A stretch of 64,000 nucleotides of DNA, taken from NCBI GenBank assembly GCA_026419775.2, contig JAOPGA020001434.1, forward strand, positions 1 through 64,000. Direction: 5' to 3'. Made by a program: the position numbers and the translations under genes. Position 1 is the first letter of the stretch. The number at the start of each line of letters is the position of its first letter. The notes under the pieces are model-generated. The model had not been told where the DNA came from and did not search any database. It worked only from the letters and a program-made list of their open reading frames with translations. Source of the stretch: Acrasis kona. Its lineage: Eukaryota; Heterolobosea; Eutetramitea; Acrasida; Acrasidae. Below are positions 1 to 29,277 of this stretch, piece by piece.

Positions 1-2898
1 AGAATGAGTTAGACGAAGGTCCGAGACGGTCTCACCGTTAATATCAACAGTAGTTGCGATACTGTCCTCTTGTTGATCCCCAGTCAATGTTGTTGGTACT
101 CTTCTTTTTCTCACAATGGTTGAAGAAATGATGGGTGTACTCTTGGTCTGTTTGAGGTTGCCTGGGGTGTCATCGTCTATCTGCAAATTCCCTTCTTTCA
201 AACTAGAAGCTTCGTTAGGTCCATCACCAGCGTCATTGTCATCGTCATCGTCATCAATGATCACCTTCCTCATTCTTTGGTTTGCTCCAGTGTGCATGGC
301 CACAGTATCCAAGGCGTCACAGTCCTCATGGGTTTCTTCGGGACCATCAGACAATGAATAATTGTCAAACCCACCAAGCTGTTCATCATCGCGGTCATAA
401 CCGCTACCATTGTCCTCGTCATCACTGTCTTGATGTTCCATCTCTAAAGCCCTCTCAAGAGCTCTTGTCCTTGTACGTTGGGCGGGCTGCCTGGATGATG
501 GCACTTGATCGGTTTCGAGTTCAACAAGGCCTCCTCTTGCCTTCTTCATTCTATATTGCGGCTTCCGACCAGGCTTGAACAACGCGTTTGTAATTGGAAG
601 TGGAAGATGCGGTGCCTTCGTTAATTTTGGATTGTTGTAGTGGTGCAACCAGTTCAATAATTTAAAAGGATCATTCGATGGGAAATCAGACTTGGTATTG
701 TTCTTGTATAAATGTAGAGCAATAGCGTAGATATGACCACACGCTTTTCCGCCTTGGTAGTTATAGTCAGGACAATCACACATTACAAGTAGGGAGAATA
801 TTGTATATGTGTAGTCTGATGGCTCTGAATACAAATAGAACACGCCGGCTCTTGATGTGGATGTTCTCAAACTATAAGCTCCATTTGACTGAAGTTCCTT
901 CAAAATGTCCTTCGCCTTCTCCAACCGCTTTGTCGCTTGTATCTCTGTCTTTGTTGCTCTATTGTGTTTTTCAAAGCGGACTTCAAAAGACTTTTCGTCC
1001 ATAAACTGGGTCACAAGGGTCACCGCATCATCTATCCTTGTTGTTTTAATTCCGTTGAGCAACCTTCCCCACTTTCTAAAAATACATTAATTTATCCAAA
1101 ATAAATAAACCAACCTGAAACGAGCTTCGGACATGTTATTTGTGTAGAACATCCCATAACTACACATTCTATTGATAGAGGTCCATCGGTGATAAAATGG
1201 AACTCCATATTGTTCATCATGCCAGGTACTTTGAAAATAATTACCGACAAACATGGGGTATTTGACTTCTAGTTCATCAAAATATTCAAGGTATTGCTCT
1301 TCGGTTTTGCATGCAACCATACTTCTTACAATATCTAGGACAACATTTATATCCTCTACCTCATGCAGCTCTTTATTACTTGATGCTTTCAACCACCTTT
1401 GCACAGATTGAAGCACGTGGAACACACATATTAGGAACTCAAACATGTCCGACATGGCCAACTTCTCAGCGGCTCCATCATCAATCATAAAAGTAGGTTC
1501 CCATTCACCTTCTATAAACTTTTCTTCGGTTAAGAGATAATTTTTAATAGTTTGTAGGATCCTCTTCAGTCGCTCACCAGTCACATCGGATGTTAATGAT
1601 ATAAAAGGAACGCATGTACGCCTAGTTTTATCATGATGCGTAGTGAACACTTGGATTGGAATGGAGTGGTCCTTGTTGTCATCTTTCGAACCATCAACAA
1701 CAGCCCAGCAGAACTTATAAACTGAGTCGAGCCCTACTATTGTTTGGACAAACTTTTTGCACTTTAGGAGTTCATCTCGAGCGATAAATAGGAACTCAAA
1801 GTCGGTTGGAGTCATTTCAGTTACAGAGCGATTGTCAACATTAGAAATAAAAATATATCTTCCGTTAGACTCATTTGCAAACTTTTCAGCATGATGAATC
1901 GCTTTATTAAATTGTTCCTTTGAGCCTCCACTTTTCACCCTCAAATGATACTTCATGTTTGAAAGCTGTCGAGAGTGGATGTCATAACGGGTATCCATAG
2001 AGCTTGAAGCAGTCCGGTTGTACTTCTTACGGATCTTGCTCTTGGCCTTTGTGTTTGAAAGGTCAAGGTACTCTTTCTTGATCTGTGACTTGACATAACG
2101 AGATACCGGGAGTTGTCCAAGCTTTGGATGAAAGAGTGACACATGAGTACCTTTCCCAAACACATGACATGTGTAAAATAGCTTTGAATCTTTCCTCTCA
2201 ACAAACATATCTATTTTGATCGAAGCGGTACACCCTTTCTTTACCACACAGAGTGTATCTTGACATGATTTTGTGTACTCGGTGCAGAGCAAATGTATAC
2301 CGTCTCCTTTTGGTGTGGGGAAATCTCTTGCTTGGCCTCCTCGCATGGTAGATACTGGCTTACTCTGATTCTTTTCGTTCAGCAGCCTGTTGATTGCGGC
2401 AGGAATATATAGAGTCTTCCATCTCCAGCGACTTTGACAGAAAGGGTGGTTGTCAAACAAATGTGGTGTGTCCTCTGCAGAGCAAATAAATAATGCTACT
2501 TCATTTTGGTCTACGGGGAATCTTTGGATACTTTGTTGCTTTCTGTACTTAATGAGTGCATCATTGTTTATGTACGCTCCATGGTGACCCTTATCCTTTG
2601 TGCATGGTCCTTTCTTTGCATCGCTGTTGCACCAGCACCTATCATCGACAGCCCATTGAATACCACTGTCAAACTCTGAATCGGACGAATGCGAGTCATC
2701 TTCAGATTGCGAATGCTGAGGGCCTTTTGTTTCCTTGTCAAAAGATGAGTCAATTTCATCGCTACTGATTTGTGGTGCTGCATCTTGAGGAGAGCGGTAC
2801 TCTGTTTCGGAGCTTTCAGAGCCAGATTGTGTGTTGTTTTGTGGTGGGGACCCGAAATAGGGATTCTTTTTAGAGTGCCTTTGTTTTTTTTGTTTCAT
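1..2898 (-). CDS. MULE-type transposase with SWIM zinc finger, C-terminus beyond left edge
   Basis: This is a Mutator-like (MULE) DDE transposase. Two exons are read on the minus strand: 2898-1115 and 1075-1, joined over a 39-nt GT-AG intron (1076-1114). The frame stays open across the junction and on to the window edge. The first exon has an acidic, Ser-rich N-terminus and a Cys/His-rich FLYWCH-like segment near residues 205-256. It then holds the transposase core: LDSVYKF gives the first Asp (residue 391), MIDDGAAEK the second (473-474), CVFH the C/H motif (491-494), and NNMSEARFR a candidate Glu (591). Exon 2 carries a clear SWIM finger (CDCPDY, then ACGH) near 780-725, then a basic GRKP stretch and an acidic tail. 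No internal stop is seen, so the element may be recently active. Terminal inverted repeats were not identified. Confidence 0.87.
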
Positions 2899-3399
2899 GT
2901 TTGTGCTTCAACAACACATTATTCCGCGTTTTTATAGTTGTAGAGTGTATCGTTAGCGGTTATCGTTAGTTCGCTTCATCCATCTGCGCTGACATTCATG
3001 TTTTTAGTAACTTATTACAACTCAAACAATTCAAGAGGCCAAATACCAAATCAATGGAAAGAAGATGAACTTTAGTAATTTCACTTTCGATACGATTATA
3101 AGACACAAGAGGCACTAATATTTATGATGGCAGTTTAAATTCATTCATTATTAATTCGGAACAGACTGATAACTCAATAAGACAATAAAACACAATGCTT
3201 ATCACTTTATTGCGCTGAGCGAATGTAATTTAACATAATAAAAAAATATTAATTTTGATGATCATGATTAAATTCCGATGGAATGCGATCATGAAAATCT
3301 TGAGATGCGGCATATACCATTCGAAAGAGCGTACAAAACTGTGTTAGTCATATTAAAAAATGGTCCTCACATAAGTTATTCGGTGATCTGTATACCTTG
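2899..3399. other. Intergenic, no gene seen
   Basis: This is AT-rich sequence upstream of the MULE transposase start. No open frame with recognisable composition was found on either strand. It presumably holds the element's 5' flank and terminal region. Confidence 0.5.
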
Positions 3400-3454
3400 T
3401 TGTACATTTCAGATAATTATTTGTACATTTCAGAAAACCTTTGTACATTTCAGA
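3400..3454. repeat. Three tandem copies of a 14-bp motif
   Basis: The motif TTGTACATTTCAGA occurs at 3400, 3421 and 3441, a spacing of 20-21 bp. The array lies exactly where the minus-strand integrase fragment loses its reading frame, so it may mark a breakpoint or an element end. Confidence 0.8.
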
Positions 3455-4034
3455 TATCCGCGGTACAGGGTGGCATGAAAGTGCAATCCATATACAGATC
3501 TTTATACGGACCCTCACTAATGTGCATTTTGAGCGGGACAGCCCAGTTTTGTGGAGCAGAGTGACCACCACGACCGTGTTTTGAGCAGCTGAAGCATGTT
3601 TTCAGGTGCATTTTAACATTATCATTAATGTTATCCCAGAAATAAGTCTTTCTGATCTCATACACCGTGCTTTCAACACGACGATGGCCTACAGACTCAT
3701 GCGCTCTCATGATGATATCTGGTCTTTCCGAAACACGAGGATAAACAAACCAGTAGAGAGTGGTGACCTTCTCCTCACTTATTGGTCGCTGTTGAAGGTT
3801 TTGCAACACAGCTTGAGGATCCAAGAGCTCATCATGAGTGGGTGCAACTGCCACTCCAACAACTTCACTTTTCGGAAGACCTATTAATAGATGGTCCTTC
3901 TCCGAATCCCACTGACACCTTCTCTTTGTTGTCTTCGCTTTGGAACCTCTACCAAGAANACTCTCGCAGTACCGCTTCAGCTCCTTGCCAAGATCTTTAT
4001 GATATGATTTATTATTTTCAAAATAATAATACAA
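3450..4034 (-). pseudogene. Retroviral-type integrase fragment (H2C2 zinc finger and start of core)
   Basis: The reading frame shows an integrase zinc-binding domain: HESVGH supplies two His and CFSC two Cys, about 30 residues apart, with KTYFWDN between them as in Gypsy/Ginger-type integrases. It is followed by KDLYMDCT, which matches the start of the catalytic core with its first Asp. The frame then stops in the tandem repeats at 3400-3454, so the rest of the catalytic core is missing. No reverse transcriptase or capsid gene is nearby, so this is a truncated remnant. It could come from an LTR retrotransposon, a Ginger element or a Maverick; the fragment is too short to decide. One ambiguous base lies at 3959. 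Confidence 0.6.
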
Positions 4035-5307
4035 GTGGTCATATGACGTCTTGCTAGTGTGTCAGAACCTGGTCTCAAACATACACAAGAAAGTTTTTGA
4101 ATTTAACAGTTTATTTTACCTCGCGGATTATTGTAATGTTATTTCCCCTTTTAGTCCCCGAGGATTCCGGTCGGATTTTTTTGAGAGGATTCCTGTGAGG
4201 TAACACTTGTATTATCGAAATGCATTGCATGATTACTTTCCACCTTTTCATTGACGACTCTGTTGCTGCCTCATATGTCTTCAAAGTTTCCAATTCAAAA
4301 GTTGACCGACACTTTACAAGGAATCAAATCTTGTTTGAACATTGTCCATTGATAATAACCCTCAACTAGCAGTGATTTATATCAAACAAATCGCTGTGTC
4401 AAAATCAGGGCATCTTATAGCATTGTGATACATCAATAAATAGTGATTCAGAAAGTGGGGTTCTATGCCTGACTTTGGAAGGAATAATCACTTTAGTTTG
4501 AGCATGAGATCTCAAATTTTACGAGCTGATTGTAGTGATGCGGCCTTCTAAATTTTTGAAGCATCATTTATATTTGTTGCTGGTGTTATAGTGGCAGCCG
4601 ATGTAATCTTTTACAAGTTTTTGATTGTATTTGGTGACCAAATAAACGGTATACACTGTCAATAGATCATAGTGTGTATCGGTGAAACAACCCACTTGAC
4701 ATTATTTTTGAAGTTGACCATTACTACAAATTTCACTTTTTGGGTAAGAAGATATGAGCGTTAACCGCACCCCAGAGCGTACGACACCAATGCGGTAGTC
4801 AATCGATAAACTCTGGAGCAATTCAAACCAATGCGGTCTTGCAATGATGCGGTTGAGCTTCCAAAAAAGAAGAAGAGGACAACAAACCAAACCTTTGAAA
4901 ATCATGTTAGATTCTTTCGAAATCTTTTAATCGACAAGAGATAGTATTATTGCATCATAACCCAACCCAATATAATGAATTGTTAAATTATCCGTTACTG
5001 AAAAAAAGGTATGAAAAACTCACAGCAGTTCTAACCTTGTAACAGGCTAAGATTTAAAAATAAGAGGTTTATATTGGAAGAAACAATTTGCAAAGACATG
5101 AACTGGAGGCAGCAACAGCAGGCATTAACAAAACAAACATCAATTGTTGTGGTCAAGTAAAATGATTGATGAACGCAAGTCCAAGTATTCAAGCTAAAAC
5201 ACAAGACACAGAGCGCTTCTCACCTAAGACGTGAGGATTTAGGCCGTAGGGAAACATATGTAAAGATCCATCCATATGGCTGTCAATAAGGCAGTTCCAA
5301 TAAAGCC
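4035..5307. other. Intergenic, no gene seen
   Basis: This is AT-rich sequence with only short frames of unconvincing composition on both strands. No protein family, RNA gene or clear repeat could be recognised here. Confidence 0.5.
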
Positions 5308-5952
5308 ATGTTGTCCAGTGATGATGCGTTGGAGTTCATTAAAGAATTACTTTTAAGTCGANTAAGGGACAGGGAGAATGTATATGAGTCGCGGATAGCA
5401 GCAGCTTCCACATCCGCAAAGCTAAAATCATACCTCAAAACAGCACAAAACATCTATATGAAAAATGTTAAAGAGGTCCAAATAAGAGTGTTTGAAGTAC
5501 CTAGCGTATCGCAGCCTGATAAGATACATTTTGTAAATCTCAATAAAATGTCTTGTACNTGTTTGCGTTGTAGACGCAACAATCGCTTCTGTACGTTAAA
5601 GTTTGCCTGTTCGCTTTTTGTAGTAAACCAAAAAAAGATTGCACTTTCACCATTCTGGTTGAAGGATCCATATTGGATAATAAGATTTATTACAAAAGAA
5701 TTTTGTCCCGCCATAACAAACAATGAATCCTTAGCCTATCCAACCATCAACTTCACACTTGCACATGCATCAGCAGCCGACAACAATTGCACTCCAGTAG
5801 ACACTGTAGCAATAAAAATCGAGCAACCTTTTGATACAATGAGTTGTATAAAACCTTGTTCTATTTTTATAATTAGTATTGTAAATATGAGTAAACCAAA
5901 ACCAAAATGCTGCATTGTGAAGGTCAAGCCATTTCAAACGGAACTAGTATAA
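5308..5952 (+). pseudogene. Possible MULE C-terminal remnant with degenerate SWIM finger
   Basis: This 214-codon frame contains two ambiguous bases (5362, 5559). Its middle, VNLNKMSCxC then LRCRRNNRFC, follows the order of a SWIM finger (CxC, then C and His). The residue expected to be the final His reads Leu, so metal binding would be lost. Upstream there is a Lys-rich stretch, as usually precedes SWIM in MULE transposases. No DDE core can be seen. Other explanations, including chance similarity, remain possible. Confidence 0.3.
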
Positions 5953-6425
5953 AAGAAGTCCTTGACACATGGTGCGCTTTATGCATGTTACAAACACAAC
6001 AGGATGTCATTAAAGAAAAAAATAGAGGAGTACAAAAATTTATCTGAACAGGTATTTGTTGTTGCTGTACATTTCTAATGCTTTAGTGCAAAACTACAAC
6101 TAACAAACGTTCCTTATCAATAATCAAATATCTTAGGTGCAAACAAGTTCAACAATGAGTCAATAATCACATGGTGGCATGTATTTAATGAGATTTTTTC
6201 AAAAGTAGCCCTAAGATGTTCAACTGCTTTTCAAAAATTAAAATACTAAAATGTCACAGTAGATACTTTGGAGTGTTTGAAGCAGATTACAAGGACAAAA
6301 TAAAGCAAAGAAGTACAAAAGGTAAGTAATTTGTTATTATTAGATGTTGTCTAATAATAAATCCATGTGAGTTAGAAGAATATTATTCTTTATTTGATAC
6401 TGATATTCATCCCAAAATTAGTGCA

Positions 6426-7133
6426 CCTATATCTGATATGGCCGATATTTTGATTTTTGTAAATTTTGGAGTTGACACATCAGTCACTCCAAGAGATAAA
6501 TGGCAGTTACATACTTGGGGAAAACTTTCAGAAGTAGAGAGACTAAATTACATTTACAGTGTAATAACTCAGTATGGCTATCTATCAGTAATTTAATGCT
6601 CTAGATCTGGTAAAGCCAAAGTAATACCAAACTCAATGCTATCAACCAGTCCTTACAAGTACAAAGATATGGAAGGGACAACAGTACTGCGAGATTGGTC
6701 AAAACAAAAAATAGAAGGGCCAGACTATTTACCAAAATTCTGATTATGCTGAATTTTGTCCATGACAGATACAACTCCCACTATAAAGCATACCATGATT
6801 GTAATTTCCACTTTCCTAGGAAATTAAGTACAACTAGAAAGCACTTTATTAAAAAGTATGGTGTTATTGTGGAATATTGGATATTGCTTTCCATTTCTGC
6901 AAAAAACAGATAGAAGAATAATTGCTGGCTTTTACAACCAAGTAAATATCATGTTAAAGGTTGAACGTAGATATGTGCTGTCTGCAAATATAGTAGAAAA
7001 GTCGCTTGTTGATAAAAACAATAATAACAAACAAGCAGCCAATGAAGGAGAGGAACAAGACAATGGTATTCCAGGTACTCCTGATTATGACGATAGTGAT
7101 AAGGATGATGACACTGTTCAGGATTCTCTATAA
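6426..7133 (+). pseudogene. Decayed coding remnant, family unknown
   Basis: Coding-like stretches follow one another with stops and frame changes. One segment (about 6426-6595) contains DKWQLHTWGKLSEVERL. A second (about 6597-6730) contains RSGKAKVIPNS. A final one (6858-7133) ends in an acidic tail rich in Asp and Asn. Composition and dispersed stops suggest a dead gene, probably part of a mobile element. I do not recognise the family. Confidence 0.3.
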
Positions 7134-8069
7134 TAAATCTGATTAAATATAATCGCTTGTCAATTTAAATGTTATAATAAATTGCCCGCTTATTCTCTTG
7201 TTTGTCATTGGATGGTGTAACATTTAAATTTCAACATCTCTTTGAAATGTTTTAACAGGAATATAAGCAAAGGTAATACCTGATTCAATTAAACATACTA
7301 ACGTAATATAGATCGGTATACTTTCGTTTGCTCCTCAATGTATGTATTATCACATTTAATTCAAACTAAAACTAATAGTTGCAACATTATTGTTGAGAAT
7401 GTAGGAGATGTCCTGACAAAGAAGTTTGTAGGAAGAGCATACAATATCTCAACCTATGGCAAGGTTTATTTGTATAAAGCCGTAGCCTAATTAAAGTGTT
7501 TGGACACACCCTATGTCAATGTAATTAATTGGTACAGATTTACTGAAACTCTAAGAAGTGTCACGCAATCCATCTCCACTATCTTTTAAATCACTCAAGA
7601 ACATTCTTCCCATCAGAGCAGGAACAAGACGTGTGATCTATCATTTATACAGGGATTGATACTAGTACCAAAAGATTGGCTCCAAAAGTAAGAATCAATC
7701 CAAAACCAATGTTGTACTCAAAGATTTCTTTGCTTTCAAATATGAACGACCCATCACTCTCAAAGGTTACACATACTCTTTTTGCACTTGGTTCAATAGG
7801 GTTATTATTCATAATACTCTCCAAGTCATATTCAAACATATTGTGTTGATTGTTATCTGGTTGAGAGTCCTTATCCATGTAGTTATCAGGTCCTTGAAAG
7901 TCATCCTTGTAATTGTCGTCCTTCTATGCTTTTTTATTTACAGTTTTATTAATGAGACAACTCAGTTTCCCCCCTCCTTTCTCCTTTCACCTGACGGAAA
8001 TAGTAAAATAAAAAGGAAAGGAACGCTTCCGCGATTTTTCCACAATATTTATTTAAAGTACAACCATGA
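7134..8069. other. Intergenic; one doubtful short minus-strand frame
   Basis: This is AT-rich sequence. The only frame worth noting is 7878-7645 on the minus strand (77 codons, starting MDKDSQPDNN). It matches no known family and has no supporting context. Nothing else is supported. Confidence 0.4.
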
Positions 8070-8258
8070 TACAGCATCAACCGCGACACCAACAACCTCA
8101 GCAGTAATTCTGGCTACCATGTCAACAACAACCACAACAACCCTGATTACAGCACCAACCGCGACAACAGCCTCGGCAACTATGGCACCAACCGTCTCAA
8201 TGGGAGTAACAACGCTGTTATCAAAGCCTATTTTTTAAAAGAATATATGCAAGTTTAG
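8070..8258 (+). pseudogene. Asn-rich coding-like fragment with internal repeat
   Basis: A 62-codon open stretch ends at a TAG (8256-8258). In this frame it is rich in Asn, Ser and Gly. It contains two related units, one beginning YSINRDTNNL and one YSTNRDNSLG, about 75 bp apart. Such Asn-rich repeats are common in protist proteins. There is no start codon in frame, so it is either the last exon of an unseen gene or a fragment. In another frame the same DNA reads as a Thr/Ala-rich string, so it may be only low-complexity sequence. Confidence 0.3.
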
Positions 8259-8338
8259 TTTTTGATCTGGAAATTTGAAGTTGTGAAGGATTTTTAATCT
8301 GTAAAAAATAGTAAAGAAACTCTTTAATAACACTTTTG

Positions 8339-9697
8339 CTATGCCTCTTCTGGGACCTCATTTAAACAATATTCAAATTTTGCAGTATCTGGAATGTTGT
8401 CACTTTGCAGTACACAATCTAACCATTCCGTGCGTACAAGAGGAATACCTTTGTTCCTCAATCGATGGTACACCATATACCTGGGTAAAGCAAAATTTGC
8501 TTTACATGCTGCTTTCCATGTTACGTCACTACACACCGCCACGGAAAAAGCATCATTAGCGCGGGGCTTGGTAATGTTTTTAGATAGGCTATGAATAGCA
8601 TGTATGCTTTTAGAACCAATACATTTCATGATAGACTCCTTGTCTTCAAACTTACCAATCATGAAAATCTTCCCGTAATTGCACCTGTTAATTTCTCCAT
8701 TTGCAACAGCAGTTTTATAGCAGAGATTAACAATACGCTCATGCAAGGGGCAGACCAAGGAAACTCTATTCCCGCTTTCAATGTCCAAATTTTTGTGTCG
8801 TAAAATTCTGAATCTTGCACGTAACATGTCGCAATGTCCTAAATCATACTCTAACTTCAGGTCTGTGAATAATAAATTACAACCCTTGCAATTGTCGGTT
8901 TTGAAAACGAACAACAACCCTCCAACGTCTTCGGCATCATTATCGTCTGTGTGTTCCCTACATACAGAGTTTCGAATGTTGATGAATAGGTTAGGCAGAG
9001 GAAAAGGGTATACTTTTTGGACACTTGGGGGCATTGCTGCCATGGCTTCCTCTATAGTTTTTAGTGTCACTGGGTCATTTTTCTTCAAATGTGTTATAAT
9101 TAGGTCACATAATTGATGTAAAGAAGAAAATGCCTTGTCAGCAAACCGAGATTTTTTTAGTTTACTGAAGTGCCCAGACAAACACCACTTTCCAGTATAA
9201 TGTTGTTTTGAGATTCCTACATGAACACAAATGTTGCCTCGGGTTGCGTCAAAATCCTCGTCCGTAAATAAATCACTATCTCCAATTTCACACCAAACAT
9301 TTAGGAATTCATCTCCACAACGTTTGTTTACATATTGCGGCCGAAGGTCAATAAGTTTTGTATTTGACTCACCACTGGTAATTGTTACAGTATGCCTTTC
9401 TTTTGAGATAGTCTGCCAGGGTTTGTCACAATTTACCTTAAAAACCCTAGATCTTTGTACTTCTGCTGGAAAATCCACAGATAGTACAGTGTGCGATGTA
9501 CTTTCAGCAATATTAGTGTTGGAATTGACGTTCAAAGGTTCGGGTACGTTAGTGTTGGAATTTTCGTTCAAAGGATTATTTTTTAATTGTTTTTTTGCTC
9601 GGTATTCCTTCATGTAATCGGGGTTTTGATCGCGAAATTTTTTGTTGGTAATCTTTCTTCTCTTTGTCTTGGCGAGCTGACTCTTTGGCTTTCCCAT
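8339..9697 (-). CDS. 2OG-Fe(II) dioxygenase (TET/JBP-like core) fused to a C-terminal BRCT domain
   Basis: This intact 452-residue frame was not assigned by overall similarity; domain calls rest on motifs. Residues 1-40 are strongly basic, and residues 45-62 hold two near-identical copies of a short Asn-rich unit. Residues 245-315 carry the double-stranded beta-helix signature: REHTDD gives HxD (His249, Asp251), a second His follows 52 residues later (His301), and GNRVSLV gives the 2-oxoglutarate-binding Arg311. GGLLFVF and the CKGC segment lie between, as in TET/JBP and transposon-associated 2OGFeDO enzymes. Residues 342-432 resemble a BRCT domain, ending in the typical GIPLVRTEWLDCVL with its W-x-x-C. 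The inferred role is oxidation of a nucleic-acid base or a protein, targeted to DNA-damage or replication complexes. It lies last in a same-strand trio within transposon debris. Confidence 0.6.
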   Translation of the reverse strand: MGKPKSQLAKTKRRKITNKKFRDQNPDYMKEYRAKKQLKNNPLNENSNTNVPEPLNVNSNTNIAESTSHTVLSVDFPAEVQRSRVFKVNCDKPWQTISKERHTVTITSGESNTKLIDLRPQYVNKRCGDEFLNVWCEIGDSDLFTDEDFDATRGNICVHVGISKQHYTGKWCLSGHFSKLKKSRFADKAFSSLHQLCDLIITHLKKNDPVTLKTIEEAMAAMPPSVQKVYPFPLPNLFINIRNSVCREHTDDNDAEDVGGLLFVFKTDNCKGCNLLFTDLKLEYDLGHCDMLRARFRILRHKNLDIESGNRVSLVCPLHERIVNLCYKTAVANGEINRCNYGKIFMIGKFEDKESIMKCIGSKSIHAIHSLSKNITKPRANDAFSVAVCSDVTWKAACKANFALPRYMVYHRLRNKGIPLVRTEWLDCVLQSDNIPDTAKFEYCLNEVPEEA

Positions 9698-9954
9698 CTT
9701 ACAAATTTTTCAACAAACAAAAATGTAAAGTGGGTGAAAACCCATGAGGACAGGTACATGAGACAATTTGATAAAAAAATCTATCAGTACACACTGCAAC
9801 AAAATACCTTTGATAATTTTTCTCTTAAAAAATGCAATCAATGATCATTTTTTCTGAAAGTGATAAATAGGTATCTTACACTGACTTGTCAAATCCTTCA
9901 TGGACAAATGATTTGCTTTCAAAGAGATTTACACAATCTGTAATAAAGAACATT

Positions 9955-10434
9955 TTATTCACGCTGTTGCTTCTTTCCTTTCGTCACTCTCCTCCTTTTT
10001 GCTACTCTTCGCTGTCTTGCTGCTCTTCTTATTTCTTTTCTTGCCAGGTCTGCAAAGGTCTCAAATTCATCTCCAGACATGTCTGATGAAGTGTAATAAT
10101 CACAGAAGTCATCATCCAAAAAGGCACTTGGAATAAAATCAGATTCTACCAAGTCTATAGCTGAAAGCATATAGTCACCCTCCATGCCTGATTCTGTGCT
10201 TGATGAATCGTCCTGTGAGCTGGATGGTTTTTGCACCGTGTCATCTGACTCTTGCACAATGATATCTGGGTCCTGATCAATATTGTCTAAAATTAGTTTG
10301 GTGTGATTTGCAACTGTTTCAGTGCCTTCCAGATGTAATGGTGCTGATTGCAAAGTAGGTAGCTTTATTTTGAAGAATTGATGGAGTGTATACTGGTTGG
10401 ATTCAGCGGCGTCTATTATTTTGTTACTAATAAC
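9955..10434 (-). CDS. Acidic protein with PIP box and basic tail, probably spliced
   Basis: The frame is open from 10434 to the stop at 9955. It has no in-frame start codon upstream of 10353, so the conserved part probably begins at a splice acceptor (TTATTAG, just before 10434). Near the start is QYTLHQFF (10395-10372), a complete PCNA-interacting motif (Q-x-x-L-x-x-F-F). The middle is acidic and rich in Ser and Asp. The last 30 residues are Arg/Lys-rich (RRAARQRRVAKRRR), which would suit nuclear targeting or nucleic-acid binding. The protein family is not recognised. Its place between the Gly-Arg protein and the dioxygenase-BRCT gene, on the same strand, suggests one element or one multi-exon unit. 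The donor exon could not be fixed. Confidence 0.45.
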   Translation of the reverse strand, partial: VISNKIIDAAESNQYTLHQFFKIKLPTLQSAPLHLEGTETVANHTKLILDNIDQDPDIIVQESDDTVQKPSSSQDDSSSTESGMEGDYMLSAIDLVESDFIPSAFLDDDFCDYYTSSDMSGDEFETFADLARKEIRRAARQRRVAKRRRVTKGKKQQRE

Positions 10435-10461
10435 CTAATAAGCATTAAATCAAAGTAATAT

Positions 10462-10831
10462 TTATCTTAAGTTAGAACCACTTTGTGGAGGACCTTGTGG
10501 AGGCTCTAGCATGAAACTACCAGTAAACTGTGCTACTGGATCTCCATCGCTCGTTCTCTTGGTTCCCCTTCCTCTTCCTCTTCCTCGTCCTCTTCCTCTG
10601 CCTCTGCCTGGGTTTACATTATTTGCAGCCTCTCTAGCATTACGAGTTGGTATTTGATATCGCTGCTGCTGTTGAGGTTGGACAAAAGGAGGTAGACCCT
10701 TTAACACATACAACAAAACAAACAAAAACGTATAAATAAATAGAAAGTTGATTTTTTAATAGTATTTTTAATCATTTTTGATTGTTCCAGACCATTGGAA
10801 TGAGGTTCAATTTAATTCTTGAAGAACTCAT
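10462..10831 (-). CDS. Small Gly-Arg-repeat protein, two exons
   Basis: Exon 1 (10831-10793) encodes MSSSRIKLNLIPM. A 94-nt intron (10792-10699, GTCTGG to TTAAAG) leads in phase 0 to exon 2 (10698-10462), for 91 residues in all. Exon 2 is Gln-rich, then has about eight Gly-Arg pairs and a hydrophilic end. The same exon 1 end, splice junctions and first three codons of exon 2 occur in an inverted copy at 16193-16344. This supports the gene model, because both splice borders are conserved while the intron has diverged. RGG/GR tracts usually bind RNA or DNA; the function is otherwise unknown. It probably belongs to a mobile element. Confidence 0.45.
10690..10823. repeat. Left arm of a diverged inverted repeat (partner 16210-16332)
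   Basis: Positions 10782-10823 match the reverse complement of 16210-16251 exactly over 42 bp. Positions 10690-10720 match the reverse complement of 16302-16332 with one difference in 31 bp. The spacer between the blocks differs (61 versus 50 bp) and is unrelated. The conserved blocks correspond to exon ends of the Gly-Arg gene and the spacer to its intron, so this is a duplicated gene segment, not a simple terminal inverted repeat. Confidence 0.85.
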
Positions 10832-11603
10832 CACTGAACTACACTGGCGAGAAACCGAACACAACTAGTTAGTTTTGGTGTATTCAATGATTTAATTGTC
10901 GCGACAAGTGTTGTTCAACAACGTCGTTGGTACTTTGCCTCGATTAATCATATCTATAGAAGAGATTTGATTGACTCTGACCTTGATCGAGTGTAGTTAC
11001 TTATTAACTACAACCGTCATGTTTGAGATTGTACGTATCAAGGAAAAATAATTGTGCTACATTGTCCTTGACCTTGACAAAATGAAGGCCGACAAGTCAT
11101 CCGCTTTGGAGATGTTACAACTTGTCAAACAAAGTTATACAATAATACTATCTAGTAGCGTCGCATTGGTTGTTCTGGATATAACCTCGAATTTTGACTG
11201 TCTTTTTGATTGCAGCCTGGCTATTGAGATCGATTCTGTTCATATCTATTCTAATTTAAATTTTGATTGGATTTGTCATACAATATGGTGGAGCATACAT
11301 TGTGCGTTTCCTGTGGCAATATCTTCGCTGGCAGAGAGACTCTACACCGTCAACCGTGAATGTATTTATTACAACAGACTGTCACAACAACCGATGTTTT
11401 GGACTTTGGCAGGCGAAAGGATGAATTTGGGACGTTGATGAATTATTCAANTCGGGAGAGCAAGCGGTAACGTGATCCACACTCCTTTTGTAAATCAGAA
11501 CCAACACGAATTCAAACGATTTGAATTTGTGTTGAAATAGAAGGAGGCAAGCGGTCAACATCGCGATCTAATGTTATACATTTGAAATCTTCCGCTCGTC
11601 TTA
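10832..11603. other. Intergenic, no gene supported
   Basis: This is 5' flank of the Gly-Arg gene followed by AT-rich sequence. A 128-codon plus-strand frame at 11052-11438 has unconvincing composition and no recognisable motif. An ambiguous base lies at 11451. Confidence 0.45.
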
Positions 11604-12635
11604 TTGAAAACGATAACATCTATCAAAAAGAGATCCACGCCGCAAGAAATGGAAAATATAAAATTGAATGCTACTAAACGGAGGACCGCTTGTCAAATAT
11701 ATGATGAGAGTTTAACGAGCGTGAAATTTTCATGTGATGGTCCCAAGCAGATTCAGAACATTAAGTATACACATAAAGACACAAGAAATGAATCTGCACA
11801 AATAAGTCGAACAAAAAGCATTCTTTCCTGATATTGTTCAAGTTGCTAATACAATTGATGACCAATTTGCATTATTATACACATATGACAGTTTGGTTGC
11901 AATGCAATCTGCGGTTCTGTGGTTTTTGGATGCCACATTCAATATATGGGAGGGGTGTGTCACTTCATTGGTTTTCAAAAATCCGTTCATTAATAACAAT
12001 GAACTTCAAGTAGGATTTGTATATCTCCACCAGGTATTTCTTATTACTTAGCTTAAAAACTACGGAGAGGAGTCAATGGTATACAGTAATCGAGAACAAA
12101 ATTTCCCACTAGCAGTGTCGTGCGGAATTACCTTCCTTGAAGCCGAAATGTTGGAGAGATGTGCACTCAACATTGTAGACCGCAGCCATGTACAGCGTGG
12201 TAGCAGTGGAAATTATTACAAGCTACATAAAGAAGAGGATGATGATAAAGTTCAGTATGTTTATTATAATACTGAGAATCTATCAGATCTTGAATGTTCT
12301 TGTGATCACTTCAAAGCGTTTCTATTATGTGTCCATATTGTTGCCGTCGCAGATTTAACAAAGCGGTATGGCTATTTAAGAAGGTATAAGTCCATCACCA
12401 ACTAGTGATATCACCAACGAGTGATCAAATCTGGGATGTTCTTAACAAGAAATCTAGGTTGAGGTGTGGACGAAAAAAGAATGAAAGTCGATTAAAGTCT
12501 TGGCAAGAACCATCAACAATCAAACCAAAAAGTATGACAGAGTACATTGGCCGTATAAACAATTTAAGTTATGTTGTGCATAGCGACAACGAAAGCGATG
12601 GTAGCATGGATAGTTCGGATGAGTCCGATGCTTGA
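11604..12635 (+). pseudogene. MULE transposase remnant with internal deletion
   Basis: Three coding blocks in different frames add up to a broken MULE transposase. The first (11604-11831) is a Lys-rich N-terminal part. After a frame change, 11824-12052 contains WFLDATFNI, the first catalytic Asp motif, and ends at YLHQ. The block 12076-12405 holds a SWIM finger (LECSCDHF, then LLCVHIV). The last block (12405-12635) is hydrophilic with a basic RCGRKKNE motif, as usual after SWIM. The stretch that should carry the second Asp and the Glu is absent, so the gene lost its core. Near the last frame change a 16-bp tandem duplication (about 12389-12420) is visible. Confidence 0.6.
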
Positions 12636-13231
12636 TTGAATTTTGAACTCAAACAACCTAGAGAGATACAAAACCATCACACTGTAGGATGGAAACCATA
12701 CAGGCATAAATTGTGTCCTTATCGGCAGAATGACAGCATTTGTTTTACTTACTGCTGGATATTTGGTTATTATTTTTGGTCTGGTGGCATTTTTCAGGCA
12801 CGACCGCCGATGTTGGATTTGAATCGTTGTTATTATTTAGGAGAGGCTTGGCGGCGGAAGTTGCAGGCTCCGCCGATGTCAGATTTGATTTGCTCTTATT
12901 CTTGAGCAAGGGATGAGATCAGTATAACTCAAATGAATGAATAAAATGCTCATCAAATTTCATAAATCACCGATAGAAGTAAGGATCTAAAGCACGTACA
13001 AGCAAGTATCTGCTCCTAATATTAAAATGTTATGAATTTGGTAGATAGACGAACGCGGCTAGGTTCAGGGTTAGAGATCGACAAGAGGGATAACTTGCGG
13101 AGGATGACGATAACAAAGAGGATGAGGATGTAGTTGAATTTGAGATCCCTGGACTGGATAATAAATATTGCAAGGACGATGAGGCTCACAAATATTTGTT
13201 TTAGTTGGTGATGGTTTATTGAATATTGATA
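12636..13231. other. Intergenic with short degenerate repeats
   Basis: Two related units of about 38 bp occur near 12801-12840 and 12867-12905, sharing CCGCCGATGT and then a T-rich part. An open acidic stretch near 13090-13203 could be a coding fragment. No gene can be supported. Confidence 0.4.
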
Positions 13232-14140
13232 TTACAAGGTAGTTAGTGTTCTTTCCGCACCACTTAACAAAACTTTGTAGTGTATCATCTTCCTACGTCC
13301 GTCAGGAATATGGTGAAGTGTTGGTGTGCTTGTTGTTATTAATTCTCTAGAGTCATTCGCTGCCCTCCAGGTTCTTCTTCTAATGGGAGGTAAATCGGTT
13401 GGTAGTTTGTAAAGTGCTGATATCACAATCAAAACGGAAGGAGACGGCCACAGCGTGCACATCAAAGCATTACGATAGGATTATTTGGAGCAATACATAC
13501 AATAAAAATACATTTATTCAACATTCATCTCCGTCATCATCATCTTGATAGTCGGGCTCTTGGTCGGAATAAAGCTCTAGAAACTTCTGTGCCCTTTTGA
13601 TAAATAACGGTTCATCCACTCCTTCAACATCAAGGTCGTCTATCAATTTTTGGTGAAAGAAGTGAACAATAGAATACCTGCTCCTGCCCTCCCATTTATC
13701 AACACAATGGTGAAGAGGACTCGAACGGAACAGGAATAAATCCCCAGCTTTGTAACTGAACCTGGCATTCAGGAGGAACACAGAACCTGCCGTCAGTGAA
13801 ATCACCGGTAGGCAATTCCGCTCAAGTTCGCTTTTAAAAGTAGGTTCTCTTTAGCGGTAAAGAATTCTGGGAAGTACAACAGCAGATCCTTTCCATCCGC
13901 ATCCTTGAAAATAGTTCTCTCACTATAGTCCTTGTAACTTTCGTGTGAGGCCATCTTTTAAATTAAGAAATGTAAATCAAAATACATACCTTTTTCTTAG
14001 GGACAGTCTTCTCAATAATGGTTTTCAACTTAACAGACGCAACCACCTCAGTCTTAAAATCTTTAAGTTCCTTCTTATAATGGCGGACAAGATCATTAAA
14101 CCTCCGATTATCATTCCTCTCCTCTTCTTTGGTTCTGGAG
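13232..14140 (-). pseudogene. Transposon-associated 2OG-Fe dioxygenase, frameshifted
   Basis: Minus-strand pieces form a broken gene. The segment at about 14110-13990 encodes a charged, coiled-coil-like stretch. A 35-nt intron (13989-13955, GTATGT to AAAAG) precedes 13954-13802, which contains ERTIFKDADGKDLLLYFP. After a one-base frame change, 13805-13518 contains AGDLFLFRSSPLHHC and GRSRYSIVHFF, which match the second iron-binding His and the 2-oxoglutarate-binding Arg of 2OGFeDO/TET-JBP-type enzymes. It ends in an acidic DDDDGDE tail. No HxD motif is evident, so the middle is probably deleted. A further coding-like frame (13465-13232) may be the continuation. The Ulp1-like protease remnant lies just upstream on the same strand. 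Confidence 0.5.
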
Positions 14141-14527
14141 TCTCATAACTACCATCTTCCGGTAGCGCACGTCGTTGAGAGCTGTTGTTGTTATTTGGCA
14201 AGTCACAGGGGCTACAGGTTCTGCTACTTGCCTGTGAAATGATGTTCGCTGCAGGTTCTGCTACTCACATCCTTGCCTCCACGTTGCGTTTGATTCACAG
14301 CTTTGTTGCTTTTCATTAAGTTTGTTCATCATCATGTTTGATACTTTTCGGTTGATTAAACGGACAACTTTAAGCGCTCATTGACATAACCTCTTACAAG
14401 GGCAAATACAGTGTGGCTATAATAGCGAAGGTTCTCACATCAATCAATACCAGGATAATGCTATAAATAATAATTAATTTGCCAGTTTGTATATAGAACA
14501 TAACTTCACAAACAATTTAAATGCAAA

Positions 14528-15720
14528 TCAATTTTTATGCTTTTTCTTTTTTGGCTCTCCGTCATGTGGTGTACTTTTTCGTTTCGAACTTTTTACCTCC
14601 TTTGCCAAACTATCCAAATCGTCATCCTTCGCAAAAGTGATCCGTTTTGGCAGAGCAGGCTTCTGTGGGTGTGAGCCAGGGGACTTGAGTGACTTGAACT
14701 TTGCGGGTGTCTTTTTGGTCGGAGTTTCTGGCACTGAGGGTGCATAATGATCAAAGTATTCATTATAATTGTTATTAATGATACCAATCACATCATTAAC
14801 ACTATCTGAATTATATTCGATTTGCACATTGTACAAATCAAAATTGATACCACTCTTGATGCTATCTTTGATAATAGATAAATTGATCAACAATCTTGGC
14901 CCACACGACCAATCATCAGGCTGCTCTGGCGTAGGTATATTTCGGTACTTGAATGTATAATCGGAACCACCATTCGTTTCATATTTGTATCGCTGTACAC
15001 AATACTCTGCAACCCGTTGCATGCTGTTTGTAGCGCATTGACACAGAGTGTTGATCGCGTAAACACTTACATTACTTTTCACTGTCTTTTATTTCCACCA
15101 ACACTAACGAATAGTGGCTAGGCTCTTTAACAACAAACAAAATTTTGTCAAACCGTCTTTTGTGCAGGAGGTTATCTGATGTGAACTAACGTGTGATGTC
15201 CGGAAACTCAAAAGTCATCTTGTCGTTAATGTACCTGCGGTAAGAGGATATATCAAACAACAATGTCTAAGGGTTATTATAAGTGATGTGATGTGTTGTA
15301 ACTTACCCGCATTTGTACTTGTTGGTTGACAGTGAACCATAAGCGACAGATTCCATCATATAACGAGTCGCCTAATTTTTTGTTGACATCAAGTGTGTTT
15401 AGATCCTCTCTTTTCAAAGCTAACGGTCCCACGGAATTGATGTCTGCTTCTTCACCTTCTTAGTGGATGTCCAAATTTCTCGGAAGAAACTACCTTGTGC
15501 AGATTCTTCTTTTAAGATCCTCCTTAACGCATCCAAATTTGCTATCAGCTTTGATGAGCTTATTGATAGGTCAAGTACATATGGATATTCTACAGCGAAG
15601 TCAAAGAGATTTCGCTTATTGTTGAATGTCCCATTGGATACGCACGCGACATGTTGTGTGTTTTGTAATCCTGTTACAAAAGAAACATCAGATCAAGCAA
15701 TAATTTGACGTCGCGGCACA
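14528..15720 (-). pseudogene. Ulp1-like (C48) cysteine protease, broken, transposon type
   Basis: Read on the minus strand, coding blocks run from an acceptor-like TTTTGTAACAG near 15670 down to the stop at 14528. One block (about 15430-15307) carries LKREDLNTL and LGDSLYDGICRLW, the start of a Ulp1 fold. An intron with GTAAGT (15306) and CCGCAG (15235) borders follows. Next come DKILFVVKEPSHYSLVLV with the catalytic His, and then PTPEQPDDWSCG with the Gln and catalytic Cys. The C-terminus is a basic, Lys-rich tail. Frames change at least three times and an in-frame TAG lies near 15200, so the gene is dead. Ulp1-like proteases of this kind are frequent cargo of KDZ/Plavaka-type and MULE transposons. 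Confidence 0.55.
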
Positions 15721-16192
15721 AACATTGTACTTCACAACTATATCCTACACTCTTTGGTGCAGATATTAGTATTTTTGCGGAAGGAGAATAAACAAATAAA
15801 TAGCGCTTTTGGCGTCAGAAGGTTTGTTAGTGAATACATGGTGGGACTACCGATTATAATAATAGAGGGCATACAACATTTCATTTAATTATAAAATGAA
15901 AAGAAAAGTGTATCGGAACATTGGACTGCTAGGTACTGCTACATAACATTCAGTTTTGATTGAAAATTCTACAGCCAATCACCGCTACCAATATTAAATG
16001 GAGTATCGATTAAGATGATNNATATCTTACTCAACACTGGACCTGGACAGACTTAATAATAGAATTTTGTTTGAACTCTACAGCAATTCTCTNAATTGTT
16101 AAAGTCAGGAACGCAGTGTACTTTGGAGCCACTTCTGAGTAGTTATAAGCTGTCTCCTTCGGCATTAGTATATGNCGGACCGTAGGAAGCTG
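15721..16192. other. Intergenic, no gene seen
   Basis: This is AT-rich sequence with ambiguous bases at 16020, 16021, 16093 and 16175. No coding or RNA feature can be supported. Confidence 0.5.
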
Positions 16193-16344
16193 ATGGTGGT
16201 GAGCATCCATTCAAGAATTAAATTGAACCTCATTCCAATGGTCTGGAACAAGCGAAATTTAATAAAAATAAAATAAAATATATAAATGTTATTTATTCTT
16301 ATGTTTTATTGTATGTGTTAAAGGGTCTACCTATGAATCCCAAA
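16193..16344 (+). pseudogene. Truncated inverted copy of the Gly-Arg protein gene
   Basis: This is the counterpart of the gene at 10462-10831 in opposite orientation. Exon 1 keeps RIKLNLIPM. The intron (about 16239-16322) keeps both borders but is otherwise diverged. Exon 2 starts with the same GLP and then reads only MNPK before a TGA. It therefore lacks the Gln-rich and Gly-Arg parts. It sits about 180 bp before the DDE transposase remnant, on the same strand. Confidence 0.6.
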
Positions 16345-16523
16345 TGATTTAGAACTTGAAACCAAATGATTAAAAACCCAAATACCTTATATCAAACCCA
16401 AATTTTAAAAATTCAAAATTATGTTTTTTTAGCATCAAAATCTCATAACTCTCTCAATAATGGTCCAAATTGAACATTTTCACAGCCAACTTGGAGGGGG
16501 GGAGTGGGTGGACCAGTCGGGGT

Positions 16524-16985
16524 CAACCCAAAAAGAAGAGACATACGTTAAAATATCACATTGTATGTAATATAAGTGACGGACGGATCATTGATGTTCA
16601 TGGGCCATTTTTAGGACGTTACCATGATATTACTTTAGCACGCTCATGATTTGAATTAAAAAATATACAACTTGACGAAGGAAAATTTATACTTGGTGAT
16701 AAAGGCTACATTGGACTAGAGAACTGCCTTACACCATCGCGTAGAAAAAGAGGAGGCCCAGATTTGACCCCGCTCCAGAATGATTACAACCAAGTACTTG
16801 GATCGGTTAGAATTGTTATTGAACAGGCAATCAGTCGTATAAAGAAGTTTGGGTGTCTGAGGCAAACATGGAGGAACGAACGTGGTCTCCACCCATTTGC
16901 CTTTTATTCATGCTCTATTATTGCTTCGCTAGAGATGAGAGAATCACCAGTGACAACAGCAGTAAATAAATTCCTACTTCTCTGA
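16524..16985 (+). pseudogene. DDE_Tnp_4-type transposase remnant (Harbinger/IS5-like)
   Basis: The C-terminal half of a Harbinger-type transposase is readable in one frame, interrupted by one TGA (16647-16649). It contains SDGRIIDVHGPFLG and RYHDITLA, then GDKGYIG with the second catalytic Asp, then RIVIEQAISRIK with the catalytic Glu and the usual basic helix. The first Asp would lie upstream and is not found. The stop and missing half show it is inactive. The array of ATTAATC motifs immediately downstream could be the subterminal binding region of the element. Confidence 0.7.
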
Positions 16986-17010
16986 TTAATTCTTACTTAC
17001 TCTTAATCGG

Positions 17011-17062
17011 ATTAATCTGATTAATCGCAATCAGGAGATTAATCAAATTAATCAAATTAATC
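17011..17062. repeat. ATTAATC array, 9-bp phased
   Basis: ATTAATC occurs at 17011, 17020, 17038, 17047 and 17056, spaced 9, 18, 9 and 9 bp. It begins 26 bp after the DDE transposase remnant. Such phased short repeats often lie inside transposon ends as transposase-binding sites. Confidence 0.7.
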
Positions 17063-17286
17063 AATTAATTACAACAAGTCTATTATTTTGTTTATGCAAG
17101 ATTGCTTTTCTTGTTTATTTGCCTCAGTCTCAAAAATTACATAATACGATACTTTCTGCCTATTTAGAGTGTTTGTGTTTTCTTCTTCATGTCGCACTAA
17201 CTCAAAGATGGGGAACTAGTTAGCTGAATAAACATACTCATAGTCTTACAACTCATATTCAACAAGATTTCAAAAAGCACAATTAA

Positions 17287-17820
17287 AGAGATGCTAATTG
17301 TGAACAAGGTGAATTTGAGTTCTCTTCTATAAAAAGAACTTCTCTGTATTGTTCAAATAGACACTTGGGGAACGCTACTCTTAATATTATTAAAAGTCAC
17401 GTTAGTAAATTATGTAGAATGATTGATGGAAAAGATGAATCCAATGACAATTTTGGTAAAATTACGAAAGAGCTTGGAAAACACAAGCCTTCTAATTTCA
17501 TTTTCGCAAAGTCTACTTTATATTACGACAAAGAGTCTGAGCAGCTCGCAGATTGGTTCTTTAATGATTATGCAGAAAAGAAAAACTTTAAAAAATATAT
17601 AACCATAACTGACAAATCTATTTCATTCAAGTTTCATGATTCATGGGCAATGGCCGATCTAGATCCGCATTGTATTTATATCGATAGTAGTAAACTGTCA
17701 TCATTAAGTGAAAGAAAACAAAAGCCATCGTTGGCATGTCCAGAGTGTGGTCAGAGATCAAGTGCAAACTGCGATGTAAATGGAGTAAAAAGGTGCAAAT
17801 TCTGCTGTAATTATTTCTGA
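17287..17820 (+). pseudogene. Unknown protein fragment with C-terminal zinc ribbon
   Basis: The frame is open from 17287 to a TGA at 17820 and lacks an ATG near its start; an AG-ending acceptor at about 17290 is possible. The body is hydrophilic and Lys-rich. The last 30 residues hold CPECGQ and CKFC, two CxxC pairs forming a zinc ribbon, after ADLDPHCIYID. The family is not recognised. The position between two transposon remnants suggests cargo of a mobile element. It could equally be the last exon of a larger, partly lost gene. Confidence 0.35.
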
Positions 17821-17874
17821 TTATTTGAAATGCACCAACACCAATCAAATACAGATTCAGTAGCAGATACTATA

Positions 17875-18327
17875 TAGATTCCAGTATGTAATGCTATTGG
17901 ACAAAACCTTGATAGAGACGGTTTTATTAATCTTTATGATCACAATAAAAAGACTGGTAAAGTTACACCTGTATCCGTTAGTGGAAAGAAAAGTCAACAA
18001 AGAAATGAAAAGATTATTAATATTGTCAATGATAAATCAAACCACGAATATACAGACAACAAACGAAAAAGAGCAGATGCTACTGAAATGATAGAGGTAC
18101 TTATAGAGCATAATGACGAGCCTAGTACTAAAAAAAAAACAACCGATAAGACTAAATTCAGTAACAACGGAAAGAAGTGGTCAATGTCTGACTTGGCCCT
18201 TGCAGATTCTCTATTCAGCGTCACTCTACATGAAAGTCAAAAAGAAGAAATAGAGAATAAATTGTTGTTAAGAAATGTTTGGGTCGCCATGTCTGGAATG
18301 TATTTTTGCAACCTTTTTGTGCAGTAA
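17875..18327 (+). pseudogene. Unknown Lys/Asn-rich coding fragment
   Basis: About 150 codons are open after a TAG at 17873-17875 that could instead be part of a splice acceptor (ACTATATAG). It includes DRDGFINLYDHNKKTGK, a central Lys-rich and Asp-rich part with likely nuclear signals (KRKRAD), and an end in LFVQ. No domain is recognised. It may continue the zinc-ribbon frame just upstream through an intron. Confidence 0.3.
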
Positions 18328-18566
18328 TGACGAGCTAGAACTTTTGAAGTGCTTTCAAGCACTTAGTTGGTACCATGAACGCCTCTTGTCAAAGTGCTGT
18401 TGAAATCTTCCCTATTAATTCTTGGTCAGAGATATCTAAGCTTGTATTATCCCTTATATACATCATTGCCGTATTCCATGATTGTTCTGTTGTAGTTTAG
18501 AGGTATTTGCATATTAATCCTTCCCTTAGCATACAAGAAGATTTGCAGATGCGCGATGTTATACAA

Positions 18567-19280
18567 CTACCTTTTATGATACCATTTAGATCTCTTGTAC
18601 GATGAATTTAATATAGTCACCTTGTGAGCCACCATGTGGGATGGTATAAGCACCAGTGTCACTAACAAAATCGGATTGTTGCGATCCTCTACCTTCAGCA
18701 TTTCGTTTGCTCCTAGGACAATCTTGTCAATTGTTTTTTCTCTGAAATTCATCAAAATGTAGTTTTCAACTTCTTTTTGGCGATCTTCAGTTAAGAATGC
18801 CCTTTTACTTGGAGTTTTAATGCAAGTGCGATGGTTAAACATCAAGTAACGATTAACGACGTCATTCTCCCATGGCTTTATCTTGCATTTGCATAATGTT
18901 GACAATGCTTTTTTATTTTCAGCTTTTGTGCGTATCCTTGCATGGTACTGGTACACGTCTGCACCGTCTTTGCTTGGTTGCTGCTTCAATTGAAAAATAA
19001 AACCATTCACTTGCAACTGACGCGCGGTGGGATGCGCAATAGGCAATACAATTCCTTCTTCATTTTGTACGTTGGATGCTTTTTGACGTGAATTTAACAT
19101 CAACTTTCTCCTTGGCGGTCTTGCTATGATACGGCCAAGTGGCTCAGGGTAGGGTAATTGGTTGTGGACCCGACAGTGCACCGAAAAAGCCAAACTGTGC
19201 TCCTTTGATAAAAGTAAGCTATTTTTTGTTGTGTTGTAACTATCCGGGTGACCTTTTTGGAATGATCTTTCAACCACCAA
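18567..19280 (-). pseudogene. MULE-like N-terminal fragment carrying captured dynein DNA
   Basis: The 237-codon frame starts at 19280. Residues 130-160 have a Cys/His arrangement (CKCK, then NHRTC) like the zinc-binding module at the N-terminus of MULE proteins. It is followed by a helical charged part (LTEDRQKEVENYI). No DDE core follows. The last 35 codons overlap a 64-bp segment that is dynein heavy-chain sequence read out of frame (18600-18663). It therefore looks like a truncated MULE derivative that took up host DNA. A short cellular gene of unknown role cannot be excluded. Confidence 0.4.
18600..18663 (-). other. 64-bp dynein heavy-chain gene fragment
   Basis: This segment matches 45760-45823 of the dynein heavy chain in this window with four differences. 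Read in the dynein frame all four are synonymous, encoding DTGAYTIPHGG then SQGDYIKFI. Similarity stops abruptly at both ends. The donor is therefore a related dynein gene or an older allele. Confidence 0.85.
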
Positions 19281-19286
19281 GATATC

Positions 19287-29271: not shown

Positions 29272-29277
29272 TTTATT
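29272..29277 (-). terminator. AATAAA overlapping stop codon of the Man1-like gene
   Basis: The stop TAA (29275-29273) lies inside the hexamer on the minus strand. Its partner gene ends 9 bp away on the other strand. Confidence 0.6.

Follow-up and report, generated by a model that had tools for sequence, protein, structure and literature searches.

The window analysed here is a stretch of 64,000 nucleotides from Acrasis kona (Heterolobosea, Discoba). An uninterrupted frame of 452 amino acids, opening with ATG, occupies 8339..9697 on the minus strand. The first-pass annotation had described an open frame with an HxD motif (H249, D251), a second histidine (H301) and an arginine (R311), all of which were found in place; the strand was missing from that description, and the plus-strand reading of 8339..9697 has many stops in frame 1. 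The features of the locus are as follows.

7954..8055, no strand assigned: terminal sequence of the host MULE, starting GAGACAACTCAG at 7954, shared with other elements
8339..9697, minus strand: gene for a TET/JBP-like oxygenase with a BRCT-like tail, intact 452-aa frame (stop codon 8339-8341)
8342..8707, minus strand: BRCT-like tail, residues 331-452 (profile comparisons)
8708..9430, minus strand: oxygenase half, residues 90-330 (profile comparisons)
8765..8767, minus strand: R311, predicted 2-oxoglutarate-binding arginine (translation, alignment of copies)
8795..8797, minus strand: H301, predicted third iron ligand (translation, alignment of copies)
8945..8953, minus strand: H249-x-D251, predicted iron ligands (translation, alignment of copies)
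9584..9691, minus strand: basic N-terminal stretch, residues 3-38, like the N-terminus of the TET/JBP-like subfamily at loci L045 and L046
9908..10685, minus strand: MULE remnant, 79.6% identical to the stretch that follows the transposase frame on contig C495 (nucleotide match)

The translation also places W425-x-x-C428 in the tail. When the window protein was searched as a single sequence, no match was obtained in Pfam, NCBIfam, the PDB sequences or a collection of 5.8 billion proteins, and no record identical to the window copy was found; the tail alone likewise matched no Pfam family. Profiles built from its family did give matches.

The genome (G000; 37.35 Mb, 1021 contigs) was searched with matches counted as pieces, not genes. 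The family is a repeat, with at least 94 matching pieces (E 0.001 or better; 93 of 108 candidates scored). Open frames of at least 420 aa without a stop inside the match were present at 13 loci besides the window (contig C563 not counted), and the copy on C269, 96% identical to that of the window, contains six stops. An alignment of 17 rows was built from the window and 16 of 20 regions, four split regions (L013, L025, L026 and L027) being excluded. Across these rows, which are 19-54% identical to the window protein, H249, D251 and H301 never vary and R311 is kept in at least 90%, a conservation of the annotated catalytic residues beyond chance; in the 12-row alignment A5 the 2-oxoglutarate arginine is invariant as well. 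Repeats are given as 16.8% of a 44-Mb genome in the A. kona genome paper (PMC11589745), the main text of which contained none of the terms BRCT, Tet, methyl or dioxygenase in a term search.

Profile A1 had no match in the protein set. From 3694 candidates, with a limit of E 0.01, the trimmed profile A5 (12 rows) recovered two proteins, both from A. kona. The last 307 residues of one, P0001, are identical to locus L023, and the protein matched no Pfam family. Although P0001 belongs to the dioxygenase family, its public record calls it atpA1, apparently a misnomer. The other, P0002 (AKO1_004471), is a full-length relative, 41-42% identical, with the same two-part architecture as the window protein and the catalytic residues kept as H283, D285, H335 and R345; its UniRef record names only the BRCT part (BRCT domain-containing protein). 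No single genomic stretch matches the whole of P0002, near-identical pieces of which lie on C15, C366, C461 and C563.

Two sets of copies are noted separately. L017 (3682-6311) and L018 (3564-6193) are 2630-bp units, 99.85% identical with differing flanks, each carrying a 550-aa family member; this reads as recent mobilisation, and no terminal inverted repeat was seen when the unit edges were inspected. L005 (370-1697) and L006 (1101-1766), both closely related to the window copy, correspond to window positions 8939-10277 and 8289-8954, respectively; the two matches overlap by 16 bases on the window, and the loci may be one copy split by an insertion.

For the oxygenase half, the Pfam family Tet_JBP (PF12851) was used to collect related proteins of the same genome, in which it gave 56 matches, 19 of them above the curated cut-off. 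An alignment of the family oxygenase (A3, 15 rows) was compared by hhalign with one of 11 Tet_JBP-type proteins from the genome (A4; seven over and four under the Pfam cut-off). The two aligned over 206 columns at a probability of 97.9%, with HxD, H and R in register, against 2.5% for the best of 40 column shuffles and 0.43% for reversed sequences. In a small frame set, the A3 HMM detected eight of 13 Tet_JBP-type loci (L029-L036, L045-L049); the A4 HMM detected 15 of 21 family loci in the same set, some of these matches falling in the N-terminal stretch, and did not match the window frame at 1e-3. Single members matched Pfam Tet_JBP in two of 15 cases (best 0.0017), and P0002 alone did not match it.

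Against PDB sequences, the top two of nine matches of the oxygenase profile were NgTet1, the Naegleria Tet-like dioxygenase (4lt5, 5cg8), at weak E-values of 0.32 and 0.47. NgTet1 is also heterolobosean, and its HxD, H and arginine region stand in register with the family, the match extending over only some 70 core positions of the profile. NgTet1 is not known to be transposon cargo or to have a BRCT tail. Other matches with similarly weak E-values, to arfaptin and CPSF for the same profile and to integrin alpha-L in a separate search, do not span the region of the iron-site motif and were set aside as chance. In Pfam, CDC45 was matched by two of 17 members (best 0.00065), and further weak matches occurred on relatives. 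The family profiles support the assignment of a TET/JBP-like oxygenase half to the predicted product of the window gene.

The basic N-terminal stretch resembles that of a Tet_JBP-like subfamily at L045 (528-1511, plus) and L046 (279-1262, minus), as judged by eye from translations; window residues 3-44 have a genome match on C299, the contig of L046. The BRCT-like tail was not found in L045 or L046.

The tail was examined with two profiles, A2 (13 family tails) and A6, which was built once P0002 had been found and combines a piece of that protein with seven nearer tails. With A2, five BRCT proteins by name headed the list of 12 PDB sequences (E 0.088-0.45); the remaining seven were not BRCT proteins. 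With A6, Mdb1 (6.6e-4) and two Rhp9 sequences (8.3e-4 and 8.4e-4) led, and seven of the eight matches listed were BRCT proteins; Chs5 and Rad4, also among them, hold BRCT domains. The leading matches are to the BRCT domains of Mdb1 and Rhp9/Crb2, which are DNA-damage-response proteins whose BRCT is not known to be joined to an oxygenase. For P0002 alone, Pfam gave BRCT_2 (7.6e-5, below the curated cut-off), with positions 7-85 of its 86 covered; of 13 tails taken singly, one matched Pfam BRCT, at 0.009. Comparison by hhalign with 10 BRCT domains of the genome (from seven of the eight loci of the genome BRCT search, bounds set by eye) gave probabilities of 75%, 83% and 90% over only 31-36 columns, the best of 40 shuffles giving 11.5%.

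In the small frame set, the tail HMM matched a multi-BRCT protein of A. kona, L037, at 3.2e-6 and none of L038-L044 at 1e-3, that is, one of the eight BRCT-search loci. It matched 20 of 21 family loci, all but L026; 13 of these had built the HMM, and of the other eight, seven matched. None of the 13 Tet_JBP-type loci was matched, so the tail marks the window subfamily among the loci compared. The fusion of an oxygenase to a BRCT-like domain is well supported by these profiles. The first-pass annotation had called the two parts a TET/JBP-like 2OG-Fe(II) dioxygenase and a BRCT domain; the former call is upheld by the profile match to Tet_JBP proteins of the same genome, with NgTet1 at the top, though weak, in the PDB, and the latter by the match of A6 to BRCT structures and of P0002 to BRCT_2, under the curated cut-off.

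BRCT domains that bind phosphopeptides have S or T before the first glycine; they form one class only, and many BRCT domains lack the residue. The residue at this position is I or L, not S/T, in all eight rows of A6. Given that many BRCT domains do without S/T, this bears on function and not on membership, and it makes phosphate-independent docking by the tail, if the tail docks, more likely.

A separate observation concerns L051 (277-657, minus) and L052 (300-680, plus), which hold near-identical 127-aa frames with a BRCT match. Together with other BRCT matches of like length they suggest a small repeated BRCT protein; as a possible donor of the tail, it was not matched by the tail HMM at 1e-3.

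The gene lies beside a sharp sequence boundary at 7954 (GAGACAACTCAG), which recurs in C283 and C495 with other flanks. The end sequence occurs at 13 places including the window, four others starting at exactly the same base; in C23 it starts one base after and in C193 one base before, and C158 and C250 have a weaker 50-base match that starts eight bases earlier. C283 aligns with the window in two blocks, the gene's 3' part (97.4% identical) and the end sequence (98.0%), with an unaligned stretch between them; the match ends at 7954. The order on C495 is transposase, another TET/JBP-like gene (under the Pfam cut-off) and the same end sequence as in the window, the transposase frame matching Pfam MULE and FLYWCH. 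When this transposase was compared with window positions 1-20000 by tBLASTn, nothing was found at 0.01; in the window the host MULE thus either lacks a transposase half or has one that is too diverged, and what is present there is one end and remnants. The genome gave 21 MULE matches on 19 contigs; on seven of the 19, a match to TET/JBP or to the family lies no more than about 3.1 kb away (a raw count). That the gene is cargo of a MULE DNA transposon is supported by this arrangement; the annotation had guessed at transposon debris and element cargo, and the gene does have MULE remnants on one side and, on the other, a terminal sequence common to other elements. A part in changing chromatin or DNA modification, which the annotation also raised, is putative.

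The MULE is interrupted by another element, whose inverted repeats (10690-10823 and 16210-16332) are 79% identical. This nested element contains a SWIM zinc-finger match (12076-12405, plus) and a frame at 14528-15082 (minus), and no target-site duplication was evident for 10690-16332. Positions 13521-13850 (minus) were matched at 1.1e-28 (small set) by the HMM of Tet_JBP proteins from the same genome and in Pfam only weakly, by 2OG-FeII_Oxy_3 (0.0094); the nested element may carry a TET/JBP gene of its own.

Ratios of dN/dS were computed for 11 pairs of copies, two of which had usable divergence in both halves. For the oxygenase half they were 0.136 (L009-L010) and 0.190 (L022-L023), and for the tail 0.159 and 0.129, respectively, which shows both halves under purifying selection in these pairs. 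Silent sites were at or near saturation in pairs with the window, and silent change was absent from L017-L018. The recent pairs L019-L024 and L020-L021 had whole-frame ratios of 0.74 and 0.97, with no clear constraint.

Between the window copy and that on C269, transitions affected 16 of the 58 C/G sites that lie within CpG, 15 of 450 sites outside CpG and 2 of 84 within GpC. Transitions were CpG-biased in five of eight pairs (window with C269, window with C283, L020-L021, L019-L024 and L009-L011, of which L009 and L011 might be alleles), and the bias was without significance in the other three (L026-L027, L009-L010 and L022-L023). Such a pattern is consistent with copies that undergo CpG methylation and deamination. 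DNA methyltransferase (PF00145) gave 10 matches over the cut-off on six contigs of the genome; these genes and the CpG-biased decay in some pairs fit a putative anti-silencing role. In Naegleria gruberi, a relative of A. kona, 5mC is described as sparse and accumulating in repeats, in the available text of the report (PMC12344493); 5hmC was undetected there, a point against the reading favoured below.

We consider it probable that the gene product is a Fe(II)/2-oxoglutarate dioxygenase of the TET/JBP type ending in a BRCT-like domain, and that the gene is MULE cargo in A. kona, the enzyme serving to relieve silencing and the tail to dock it. The substrate of oxidation and the function of the BRCT-like domain are inferred. 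On transposon DNA the enzyme would oxidise 5-methylcytosine (or thymine), and silencing would thereby be relieved. The tail would dock the enzyme on a repair or replication partner, whereby oxidised bases would be replaced, or new insertions treated at once. A fuller form is possible but doubtful: a transposon-encoded demethylation device in which a MULE oxidase brings its own BRCT dock for the repair or replication machinery of the host; new insertions would have their oxidised 5mC cut out and replaced, countering silencing and CpG mutation in one step.

Several other explanations were weighed. The oxygenase half might be TET/JBP-like and the tail a lineage-specific alpha/beta domain resembling only the last part of a BRCT. 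The hhalign matches of 31-36 columns, which cover the tail end only, point that way, as do the PDB E-values of 0.088-0.45 from all 13 tails and the single Pfam BRCT match (0.009) among the 13 taken singly. However, P0002 covers nearly the whole of BRCT_2 (positions 7-85 of 86), seven of the eight A6 matches, led by that at 6.6e-4, are to BRCT proteins, and the tail HMM reaches the multi-BRCT protein L037 (3.2e-6, small frame set); we hold this explanation to be the least probable of those considered. It is also unlikely that the window copy is a dead transposon relic that owes its open frame solely to recent insertion. That explanation draws on the host MULE here, which is without recognisable transposase and has a nested element inside it, and also on the six stops in the 96% identical C269 copy, the lack of a protein record equal to the window copy and the unconstrained recent pairs (L019-L024, L020-L021). 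Yet the window frame is intact, 13 other loci keep open frames of at least 420 aa, and the two older pairs are under purifying selection in both halves.

Alternatively, the host could have co-opted the family, for control of its own genes or for oxidation of thymine or RNA. That many loci keep long intact frames would suit a host function, and NgTet1 is reported to be active on thymine, RNA being a substrate under discussion, in the available text of PMC12344493. The high copy number, the fragments, the near-identical copies with different flanks and the position of the gene inside MULE sequence argue against it, and takeover by the host is accordingly rated as rather improbable.

TET/JBP-type cargo has been described in other transposons, and Iyer (2014) reportedly described it in KDZ elements. 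Our literature search found no TET/JBP-BRCT protein and no TET-carrying MULE, which is not proof of absence, most subscription papers having been outside its reach. The available text of Kojima (2025; PMC12730594) reports TET/JBP genes in 11 lineages of DNA transposons (three fungal lineages); MuDR/MULE is not among the 11, and BRCT is absent from the main text. The A. kona family resembles the fungal elements described there in its TET/JBP-type oxygenase cargo, its many copies per genome and its related genes in different elements, and differs from them in its discoban amoeba host, its MULE and its BRCT-like tail (PMC12730594). On the MULE cargo reading, cargo of the fungal kind (PMC12730594) would now be known from a distant eukaryote, in a MULE and as several subfamilies in one genome, one of which would have acquired the kind of tail used in docking DNA-repair proteins. 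Whether transposons steer base oxidation towards their own DNA and link it to repair thereby becomes testable, and the gene would offer an oxidising enzyme fused, compactly and by nature, to a repair-type module.

Two further matches in the window were recorded. Positions 3450-4034 (minus) match the Integrase H2C2 zinc-binding family at 4.2e-12, a retroelement-like remnant beside the MULE remnants. The frame at 29273-31198 (minus) has a Man1-Src1p-C-terminal match at 6.7e-18 and likely encodes an inner nuclear membrane protein.
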